From the NCBI GenBank assembly GCA_013360465.1, contig JABWBO010000029.1:30583-94582 (forward strand): a DNA stretch of 64,000 nucleotides, given 5' to 3'. The stretch's first letter is position 1, and each line of letters starts with the position of its first letter. A program made the position numbers and the translations under genes. This stretch comes from Anaerolineae bacterium. Lineage in GTDB: Bacteria; Chloroflexota; Anaerolineae; Aggregatilineales; Phototrophicaceae. This document shows positions 1,070-64,000 of this stretch, in pieces. The notes under the pieces are model-generated. The model did not search any database and was not told the origin of the DNA. It saw only the letters and a program-made list of their open reading frames with translations.

Positions 1070-2203
1070 TTATACGCCACTGCTGCTAAGGAAATTGCGG
1101 AAGGCGGTTACAAACTTTTGCCAGGCGGGTTCGTGTTCTGTTAACAGGTGATTCTTGCTCTCCAGGGCAACGAACTGGGCATTGGGAATCAGCGAGGCAA
1201 GTAAACGACCTTCGTTGAAGGGGACCGCTTCATCCCCGCGCGAGTGCAGAATCAGGGCCGGGACTTTGATCTGCGTCGCAAGATGGCGAACGTCGATACG
1301 GTGCATTTCACTTTCCAACCGCACTGCGTTTTCAGGAGAAACCGAGATACGCATTTGCATCTCCAAAGCGTGGATTTGTTCGGCAGGTGCCTGAGGAAAG
1401 AGTTGCATGGCGAATACCTGTCGAAAGGCCGGATTGTCCCTTCCCCAACCAACCCGCATCAGGCTAATCATCAGTTTCTCCTCTTCGATCCCTTCCGGTG
1501 TTAAGTCTCGGTTCAACCAGCCCCGCGCGTAACCACCATGCACAATCAGGTGACTGACCTTTTCAGGATGAAGTGCCGTGTAAGCGACGGCAACCGCACC
1601 ACCCTGTGACATCCCAAAGACAGGAAACTGGCGAACCCCTGCTGCGTCCACCACCGCTTCAAGATCACGCACCCACGCTTCGAAGGATACATCTTCAGTG
1701 TCCCAGTCTGACAGCCCGGAGCCGCGCTCATCAGAAGTGATGAGGGAATGCTCGTGGGTCAGCTCTTCCAGCCAGTGCTGCCATACCGGACTATCCCAAT
1801 CATACTCCTGATGACTCATATAATTGGCGGCTTTGACCAGCGGCGGACCGTTCCCAGCTATCGCATAAGCGATCCGTGTTCCATCATAACTGTGGGTGAA
1901 ATGGATACGCTGTTCTACCTTCTGTTGTTTTGTAGTGGGTACTTGATGACTTGTCTGAACAGGCGGGGAGGTGGGGGTAGCTTTCGAGTCTAGGAGTCCC
2001 AGTACTCTCGCCTGAGCGATAGCCTGCGTTCGATTGCCGACCCCCAGTTTGTTGTAAATCTGGCGATTGTACCATCTGACCGTATTAGAGCTAAGGAAAA
2101 GGGCAGCAGCGATCTGCTGGTCTGAAAGTCCGGTTGCCAAGTGTTCCAAAATCTCTATTTCGCGTTCCGTTAGTTGATCTGGCGATGGCGGTTTTTCTTC
2201 CAC
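1070..2203 (-). CDS. LuxR-type HTH domain fused to an alpha/beta hydrolase
   Basis: N-term LTEREIEILEHLATGLSDQQIAAALFLSSNTVRWYNRQIYNKLGVGNRTQA (LuxR HTH); C-term hydrolase with SDERGSGLSD, GMSQGGAVA nucleophile elbow and a SKNHLLTEHE His region. Confidence 0.85.
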   Translation of the reverse strand: MEEKPPSPDQLTEREIEILEHLATGLSDQQIAAALFLSSNTVRWYNRQIYNKLGVGNRTQAIAQARVLGLLDSKATPTSPPVQTSHQVPTTKQQKVEQRIHFTHSYDGTRIAYAIAGNGPPLVKAANYMSHQEYDWDSPVWQHWLEELTHEHSLITSDERGSGLSDWDTEDVSFEAWVRDLEAVVDAAGVRQFPVFGMSQGGAVAVAYTALHPEKVSHLIVHGGYARGWLNRDLTPEGIEEEKLMISLMRVGWGRDNPAFRQVFAMQLFPQAPAEQIHALEMQMRISVSPENAVRLESEMHRIDVRHLATQIKVPALILHSRGDEAVPFNEGRLLASLIPNAQFVALESKNHLLTEHEPAWQKFVTAFRNFLSSSGV

Positions 2204-2245
2204 AATCGCCTCCCCAAATGATAATTAGTGAACTTATCGCCACAA

Positions 2246-2304
2246 CCATTCATCCTACTCTATCTGACAGAACTTTTCCATTCATGTTTCCACTCAAATG
2301 AATG
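2246..2304. promoter_or_regulatory. Candidate operator repeats in the divergent intergenic region
   Basis: ccattcat at 2246-2253 and 2278-2285 plus inverted atgaatg at 2298-2304, between the LuxR-hydrolase gene and the TusA-like gene. Confidence 0.25.
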
Positions 2305-2373
2305 AAGACAGGTAGCCGCATTCTGCCTATTCTAAGTTATAGGAACACGAGGAAGCCAATAGGAACGGTAAAC

Positions 2374-2691
2374 ATGTTTCGCGCCCGAAAAGCGGTCAAT
2401 CAAGCTGAATGGAATGCGGCACTAGAAGCACTCCCTGTCGCGGAATTAGGCGAAGCGCATCCTGTTTCTATTTTCGAAGCCAATGCTTTCTATGATGCAG
2501 GCGATAAAGGCTGCGCGGACGGACCCCTCGACGAGATCGCGGCAGTGCTGCACCGCCTGGAACCCGGACAAACGCTGGAGGTTCGGGCAACAGACCCAAG
2601 TGTGGCAACCAATTTGCGCGCCTGGTGCAGACTGGCAAAACATGAACTTGTCACCCATGAAGGTGATCGTTACTTCATTCGACGTAAATAG
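2374..2691 (+). CDS. TusA/SirA-like sulfurtransferase-family protein
   Basis: GCADGPLDEIAAVLHRLEPGQTLEVRATDPSVATNLRAWCRLAKHELVTHEGDRYFIRRK matches the TusA fold pattern; start chosen at the ATG at 2374 with aggaac upstream (ORF track starts at 2302). Confidence 0.65.
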   Translation: MFRARKAVNQAEWNAALEALPVAELGEAHPVSIFEANAFYDAGDKGCADGPLDEIAAVLHRLEPGQTLEVRATDPSVATNLRAWCRLAKHELVTHEGDRYFIRRK

Positions 2692-2718
2692 TGAAGGAGT
2701 CTAATTCAGGGGACACGT

Positions 2719-3000
2719 TATGGCTCACAACACGCATGGCAACGATGACATCGAATGAGCATCGCTGACACTTGGGTTGCCAGCACTTCCTTGAGTTCCA
2801 GCCAGCGGACCACCATCTTGCTCACGATTGAAGGGGTGTGGGCGGCAACTCAAGGGTAGACCGATGGCTTACAGACGGACGGCTTCGCACCATTGAGCGA
2901 CCTTATCGGTCAGTTTGTCGCCATTGGCGGGGCACAGATAATCGGTGCGGCTACCGCCGTCGAAGCGTTGGTGAACGGCGACCAGACGCTCAGTTCTTAA
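2719..3000 (+). pseudogene. Degraded DsrE-family gene
   Basis: Start ATG GCT CAC AAC.. (MAHNTHGNDDIE*), frameshift, then ..TSLSSSQRTTILLTIEGVWAATQG[TAG 2857]TDGLQTDGFAPLSDLIGQFVAIGG-[gap]-AQIIGAATAVEALVNGDQTLSS*; DsrE-like pattern missing the central segment. Confidence 0.65.
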
Positions 3001-3049
3001 TCATCCGAACAAGTCTTGAGTTCTTAAATGAATAAGGAGAAGGAACATC

Positions 3050-3613
3050 GTGCAGCAAACAGCAAGTATGGTAAACGGTGTCAATGTGGATCAGCTCGTC
3101 GGGACAGTGAATGCTATCAAGGAAAATCCTGATCTGGCGAAGTTCACGTTCCGGTCACAAACGGAGTGGATTAGCGGGGGACATTCCCGCACCACCATCC
3201 AGAGTTTTTATGGTGCGGGGTCTGAGGATACATCCCGCACGCAACCGCTCATTCTTGAAGGGGATGAGCCGCCTGTCCTCCTGGGTCAGAACGCGGGCGC
3301 AAACGCAGTCGAGGCTGTCCTGCACGCGCTGGCTTCCTGTCTCGGTGTCGGTTTCATATACAACGCCGCGGCTCATGGCATCAAAGTGGAGAAGCTCGAT
3401 TTCAGTTTAGAAGGGGATCTAGACCTCCATGCGTTTCTGGGGCTGTCCGAAACCATGCGTCCCGGTTACAAAAATATTCGGGTTTCCTACCGAGTCAAAG
3501 CGGATGCGCCGCGCGAAAAATTGGAGCAACTGTGTGAGTATGTCCAGAAGACATCCCCCGTACTGGACATCATTCGCAATCCCGTGCCTGTTTCTGTTGC
3601 ACTTGAAGCTTAG
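3050..3613 (+). CDS. OsmC family protein
   Basis: NAVEAVLHALASCLGVGFIYNAAAHGIKVEKLDFSLEGDLDLHAFLGL...VKADAPREKLEQLCEYVQKTSPVLDIIRNPVPV, typical OsmC. Confidence 0.85.
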   Translation: MQQTASMVNGVNVDQLVGTVNAIKENPDLAKFTFRSQTEWISGGHSRTTIQSFYGAGSEDTSRTQPLILEGDEPPVLLGQNAGANAVEAVLHALASCLGVGFIYNAAAHGIKVEKLDFSLEGDLDLHAFLGLSETMRPGYKNIRVSYRVKADAPREKLEQLCEYVQKTSPVLDIIRNPVPVSVALEA

Positions 3614-63443: not shown

Positions 63444-63530
63444 GCGGGAAAGGGAAGGCAGATGGCGTCGGATCAGCTTCGACTGGCTGACTGCTGAACC
63501 AGCAGCGCACAGGGCGGGGCGGGGTAAAGA

Positions 63531-63561
63531 AAAAGCCCGTCCGGTTTCCCGACGGGCTTTT
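63531..63561 (+). terminator. Rho-independent terminator after the rhamnosidase gene
   Basis: aaaagcccgtc-cggtttccc-gacgggctttt, 11-bp stem ending in T-run. Confidence 0.8.
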
Positions 63562-63649
63562 ATGTTGAGGCTGGGGGAAGTGGAACCAAGTCGAACATCC
63601 GTATCACCTTAATACCCTCTATTTTACCCATCGCATTGAGTTTCCTCAA

Positions 63650-63664
63650 CGTGAGTTACTCACG
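63650..63664. promoter_or_regulatory. Palindrome cgtgag-tta-ctcacg
   Basis: Perfect 6-bp arms, 210 bp upstream of the parA-like start. Confidence 0.3.
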
Positions 63665-63702
63665 GAAATGACAGCAATCCACAGTTGAACTTCGGCTTTT
63701 GC

Positions 63703-63756
63703 GGTGAAGGGGAGAGGTAGCCGCCCCTCCCCGTGCGACCTGCGGTCGCCTTCACC
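63703..63756. repeat. Nested inverted-repeat element upstream of the parA-like gene
   Basis: Outer arms ggtgaagg/ccttcacc with inner hairpin gcgacc-tgc-ggtcgc and a ggggag/ctcccc pairing. Confidence 0.4.
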
Positions 63757-63874
63757 TTGAAGCTCGCTGCTCACGCCAGCAAGACTCCCGGATGTCACTT
63801 TACCACACCTCCGTGAAGTCCTTGCCAGCCACAGCGAATTCGACAGTTTGTTGGGTTACTGAGAGGAACTGGTA

Positions 63875-63919
63875 ATGACTCGCTCGTTCGTATTCACGAA
63901 CCACAAAGGGGGTGTCGGG
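63875..63919 (+). CDS. 5' exon of a ParA/MinD-family ATPase, interrupted at Walker A
   Basis: gagagg RBS then ATG..: MTRSFVFTNHKGGVG; reading on into the next bases gives V-R-P-stop instead of KT. Confidence 0.72.
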
Positions 63920-64000
63920 GTGCGCCCGTAAAGGCGTTTTCATGTACTGCCTCGAAGGAGGTTACGGGTAGTGAGAACCCGTATGGTCAACTGACTCACC
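63920..64000 (+). mobile_element. 5' end of a putative group II intron (truncated by the window end)
   Basis: Starts GTGCG (bacterial group II 5' consensus GUGYG) exactly at the break; followed by short stem-loops gcgcc-cgtaaa-ggcgt, cctc-gaag-gagg and acgggt-agtgaga-acccgt, as in a domain I base. Confidence 0.65.

Follow-up and report, generated by a model that had tools for sequence, protein, structure and literature searches.

A mobile group II intron lineage at the Walker A codons of parA genes in Chloroflexota

An interrupted parA gene and its repeated junctions

The DNA analysed here (the window) is a stretch of 64,000 nucleotides, G000:C225:30583-94582, from a genome of 5.93 Mb in 256 contigs (G000) with 4.27% contamination. 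At its right-hand end lies the start of a parA gene whose reading frame breaks off within the Walker A motif, with the following features, all on the forward strand:

63752 to 63874, plus strand: parA leader, 83-91% conserved, common to the parA copies within one integrative-element family
63875 to 63919, plus strand: parA exon 1 (MTRSFVFTNHKGGVG), ending in phase 0 after the last P-loop glycine codon according to the open-frame reading of the window
63905 to 63919, plus strand: P-loop codons AAA GGG GGT GTC GGG, the upstream half of the homing site and region of IBS2/IBS1
63920 to 64000, plus strand: opening 81 nt of a group II intron (5′ GTGCGCCCGTAAAGGCG...), followed by the contig end; an alignment of 107 columns with the 5′ start of a complete Ktedonosporobacter intron gives approximately 74% identity

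From position 63920 the sequence GTGCGCCCGTAAAGG reads V-R-P-stop, in agreement with the first-pass annotation, which had the insert stopping the frame after three codons. With this stop the insert does not behave as an in-frame protein insert of the intein type. The window ends 81 nt into the element, as had also been noted, because contig C225 itself stops at 94582 with nothing to its right. The parA family at 63444-63875 forms part of integrative elements with genes for a serine recombinase, ParA, a ParB-like protein and a primase/helicase, and many copies of such parA-bearing elements are present in the window genome. The end of the element is probably located near 63450-63690, since the leader is conserved and the DNA further left is not.

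The first 75-99 nt of the intron were identified at seven contig ends (C225, C75, C57, C81, C212, C13, and C54) with 100% identity, which rules out both chance and the read error that had been considered as an alternative cause of the break. Each copy lies directly after parA P-loop codons (KGGVG or KGGVA), the junction sequences including GGTGTCGGG, GGTGTCGGT, GGCGTGGGC, GGGGTCGCC and similar. All seven possess a GUGYG-type 5′ end (GTGCGCCC), with GTGCGCCC or GTGCGTCC being found in homologues. Seven sites in the window genome match the junction pattern AARGGNGGNGTNGSNGTGYGMCC; its reversed control had no match, and the pattern itself had none in 395 further genomes of the class. As this pattern demanded GTGYGMCC, introns with GTGCGTCC 5′ ends were excluded from the junction scans and so missed by them, though such ends are present in relatives.

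The intron 3′ end occurs at four other contig ends (C36, C155, C72, and C252), each of which opens inside domain V/VI. These 3′ ends are identical to one another, and in them CCTACCCTAC runs straight into AAG TCC, AAA TCG, AAG TCG or AAA ACA; the codons directly after the 3′ AY end (..CCTACCCTAC) thus follow AAR-WSN-AC, that is, K-S/T-T of parA. Domain V/VI ends in CTAC and matches Rfam family RF00029 with 53.6-56.2 bits at C36 and C252. Since the 3′ ends pass directly into the K codon, the intron separates the G and K codons of Walker A in phase 0. A search with intact ParA as query likewise finds partial genes which begin at residue 16, the K. All eleven contigs break at the intron because it is a repeat, and by sequence type C13 (5′) and C252 (3′) plausibly represent one pair.

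Intronless paralogues of the same mobile-element family are found on C29 and C115, where similarity is lost exactly at the junction and the gene continues AAATCGACATC (K-S-T; KSTSATNIA), while a third intact parA copy is present on C250. The C29 paralogue matches the domains AAA_31 and CbiA and is 91% identical to exon 2 on C36. Once the exons are joined, a KGGxGK[ST]T P-loop results. The earlier claim of a ParA gene cut between G and K is therefore borne out by the 5′ and 3′ junctions together with the intronless paralogues, and the identification of the insert as a group II intron by its GUGYG start, RF00029 domain V/VI, 3′ AY end and the resumption of the exon at K-S/T-T.

The interior of the intron is absent from the bin of the window genome. 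Reverse transcriptases (RTs) on C19, C132, C143, C67, C209, and C250 were considered as its intron-encoded protein (IEP) and all belong to other elements. On C250 (L047 1029-2917) an RT ORF is followed by an apparent cas1 and is probably a CRISPR-associated RT. The intron 5′ end had no counterpart in the plasmid collection searched, and searches of viral contigs with the 5′ and 3′ junction patterns returned chance matches only.

Complete homologues and the interrupted gene

When about 85,000 species genomes were scanned with the junction pattern, 17 sites matched, one of them real, namely that in Ktedonosporobacter rubrisoli; the other 16 were rejected as chance by reading frame and downstream sequence. 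Like the window genome this bacterium belongs to the Chloroflexota, the two being of different classes. In its closed genome the G and K codons of ParA are separated by a 2526-nt intron, and complete introns of 2513-2526 nt are present at the identical ParA codon junction in Ktedonosporobacter and three family relatives. The RT/maturase ORF that the first-pass annotation proposed looking for is present in these homologues, the IEP of Ktedonosporobacter possessing RVT_1, Intron_maturas2 and AI2M-like HNH domains; in an IEP profile search only TIGR04416 was matched, below cut-off. RF00029 domain V/VI was detected with 64.7 bits in Ktedonosporobacter, and another four complete homologues scored 63.8-65.9 bits. 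Several group II introns occur in Ktedonosporobacter, and amid these there is also a sub-threshold match to HEARO RNA (L113 5222-5393; 70.2 bits, cut-off 83).

Protein searches with the Ktedonosporobacter IEP covered 400 genomes of the phylum Chloroflexota. The best four matches (self and three at 59-62%) are all located at the ParA P-loop junction, and the same holds for genome G708, where a fifth match (56-62%) is split; none of the next relatives (40% or less) among those scanned was found in ParA. These five ParA-intron IEPs form one clade with support of 100/100. The host gene is the chromosomal parA in three of the four Ktedonosporobacter-family intron genomes and in G708, and an unrelated ParA in G744. 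In Ktedonosporobacter the interrupted gene is followed by ParB (KFGLGRGLDALI) and hence represents a chromosomal-type parAB locus; this parB (L110 8081-8944) carries an apparent frameshift, attributable to long-read error or to decay.

In three of four genomes, exon 2 of the interrupted chromosomal parA is a stop-free frame of 241 codons, while that of G573 (L124/L182) is frameshifted through either assembly or long-read error or decay. The pN/pS of interrupted exon 2 is 0.08-0.18, compared to 0.06-0.14 between empty copies. In G708, the IEP (L181, reverse complement 1799-3331) has lost its RT active site, with YLDS in place of YADD, and also lacks the HNH domain. The protein is nevertheless still encoded by a 511-aa open frame with its maturase domain kept (63% identical to that of a relative), the intron has intact D5/D6 and the host chromosomal ParA stays open, a pattern which would be expected were splicing, not mobility, retained.

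These features bear on the possibility, which we consider unlikely, that the intron of the window genome is real but merely disruptive, its interrupted parA genes being dead and the intronless copies on C29, C115, and C250 sufficing. All insertions in this genome are identical and hence recent, they lie mostly in redundant mobile-element parA genes and three intact copies exist, as such a reading would have it. The low dN/dS of the exons in the window genome reflects their history before insertion, given that the insertion is recent, and is not decisive. Against this, every one of the 11 ends keeps the junction precisely in frame, and D5/D6 gives a canonical match. Moreover, the Ktedonosporobacter family has no close chromosomal ParA besides the interrupted gene, and this gene remains open and under purifying selection even where the neighbouring IEP is RT-dead.

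Mobility and target recognition

Among 16 genomes of the Ktedonosporobacter family, the chromosomal parA site is empty in 11, two of these being of the same genus, and in four the chromosomal parA begins at the K codon after the P-loop glycine. One of the 11, G744, bears the intron in a different ParA. The intron DNA of this copy is 70% identical to that of two others whose host exons are only 48-50% identical to its own, and intron identity is 90.4% for two copies with host exons at 78%. As the introns are more alike than their exons, they have moved between genes independently of their hosts. The occupancy resembles that of Ll.LtrB, with several paralogous genes occupied and relatives empty.

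A single ancient parA intron that was inherited vertically, without the P-loop as such being targeted, would agree with the presence of the intron in orthologous chromosomal parA of four related genomes and with the close relationship of the L124 and L125 introns. This is very improbable however, as the empty sites extend into the same genus, different ParA subfamilies are hit, the window genome has seven identical copies, and the comparison of intron and exon identities contradicts it. An artefact of sequencing or assembly, for instance an intron contig wrongly fused to parA, might be suspected from contigs that break inside the intron in a bin of 256 contigs with some contamination, yet its probability is negligible with eleven independent junctions agreeing to the base and the complete arrangement occurring in closed or near-closed genomes.

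With regard to how the site is recognised, one homologous loop, at about nt 277-293, holds a 7-nt EBS1 whose pairing partner is the exon stretch from -7 to -1, spanning the V-G codons. Across six introns, EBS1 matches its own exon with a mean of 5.75/7, in comparison to 2.2-3.0 for slid controls. The most divergent exons (KGGVT of L123 and the helicase of C19 described below) pair well only with their own EBS1, swapped pairings being low. EBS1-IBS1 pairing is thus evident as covariation in six introns, and the signal for EBS2-IBS2 is weak. From this covariation in the complete homologues, the P-loop codons of the window would appear to serve as IBS1. The multi-copy spread, the different ParA subfamilies, the empty sites and the covariation all support the suggestion of the first-pass annotation that P-loop DNA is a lasting target for homing.

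The window genome has a second P-loop intron, on C19 (L049, about 8605-6151, minus strand). This is a complete group II intron of 2456 nt with a 603-aa HNH-type IEP, and it splits the Walker A of a helicase in frame (GQMGVGK^TALGG), one codon downstream of the ParA position. Its IEP is 38% identical in the protein comparison and it has its own matching EBS1, TTTGCCG. A sister intron in L129 (G473:C458, minus strand; intron start 571 in the reverse complement) sits right after the Walker B of an IstB-like ATPase (LIVLDELGFIP), and another in L133 (intron start 967) interrupts seemingly the same helicase family at a later motif (GLDLIAFSSVVFGEIEYSL). Since these sisters sit in IstB Walker B and elsewhere in the helicase, the C19 intron clade is not specific to the P-loop. 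No uninterrupted homologues of the C19 helicase were found in the plasmids or viral contigs searched.

Proposed intron function and comparison with known systems

We regard it as very likely that with the last 81 nt of the window there begins a mobile group II intron which interrupts the KGGVG^KS/TT of a mobile-element parA in phase 0, homes to the P-loop and is spliced out for the production of ParA. Such an intron, with at least seven identical copies in the window genome, would recognise P-loop DNA through its RNA and RT/maturase, partly via EBS1-IBS1 pairing, and would retrohome into uninterrupted parA genes. As the insertion splits the P-loop codons, the interrupted parA could work only with the intron cut from its message; excision from the transcript would restore the exact KGGVGK[ST]T, and ParA would be made from spliced mRNA only. 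In Ktedonosporobacter and its relatives this lineage occupies the identical codon junction, both in chromosomal ParA genes and in accessory ones. That the intron splices in vivo, that it spreads by retrohoming, and that the missing interior of the window copy is like that of the complete homologues are inferred from sequence. Counting against this explanation are the absence of the interior in the window genome (with IEP and EBS unseen), the frameshifts in G573 exon 2 and in Ktedonosporobacter parB, and the weak EBS2-IBS2 signal. Overall, the genomic evidence describes a mobile group II intron lineage with the ParA P-loop as its apparent homing site, which constitutes a new homing-site specificity.

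A further interpretation, which we advance tentatively and at somewhat less than even chance, is that in this ParA-P-loop-specialised lineage at least the G708 intron has become a non-mobile resident of chromosomal parA. Its IEP, with RT site and HNH lost, may be kept as a maturase, and production of the chromosome-segregation ATPase may be dependent on splicing in an organelle-like manner.

The literature searched, with most subscription journals outside it, contained no account of a group II intron in parA or the ParA P-loop. The significance of the lineage is that a retroelement appears to have the DNA encoding a universal ATPase motif for its homing site, crossing ParA families and passing between mobile and chromosomal genes, much as inteins do at the protein level. 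As parA serves DNA partitioning, splicing would be consequential for the cell. Ktedonosporobacter, with its 11 empty-site relatives, offers a cultured test system.

In its type of target the lineage resembles the group II introns Ll.LtrB and Ef.PcfG, which retrohome into relaxase genes at a conserved histidine motif (PMC5072309). Common to both systems are homing to the DNA of a conserved catalytic motif and spread among mobile-element paralogues; the host genes of Ll.LtrB and Ef.PcfG need splicing to function (PMC5072309), as the ParA genes would likewise. The ParA introns differ in targeting the Walker A P-loop, in also entering chromosomal parA and in their Chloroflexota hosts. Bacterial introns are mostly found outside housekeeping genes (PMC4424553). 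The Geobacillus kaustophilus recA group II intron and the heat-shock operon intron, both cited in PMC4424553, similarly lie within or beside a bacterial housekeeping gene, and are single-gene cases, unlike the motif-specific clade of ParA introns which extends over several genes and genomes. Inteins are known at the P-loop of DnaB, RecA and other ATPases and, as the ParA introns probably are too, are self-removing mobile elements at this site (PMC5874633). Inteins however act at the protein level, whereas the ParA introns would be removed at the RNA level by a ribozyme and home by retrotransposition.

Degenerate IEPs are rare in bacteria, while in organelles IEPs with maturase function only are exemplified by MatK (PMC4424553). 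The G708 intron shares with the MatK type the loss of RT function, the retention of the maturase domain and an apparently fixed position in a needed gene, but it is bacterial and resides in parA, and its maturase role is putative. This copy is a candidate example, in bacteria, of a mobile element turning into a resident intron, a transition mostly considered with organelles in mind or in relation to how spliceosomal introns arose.
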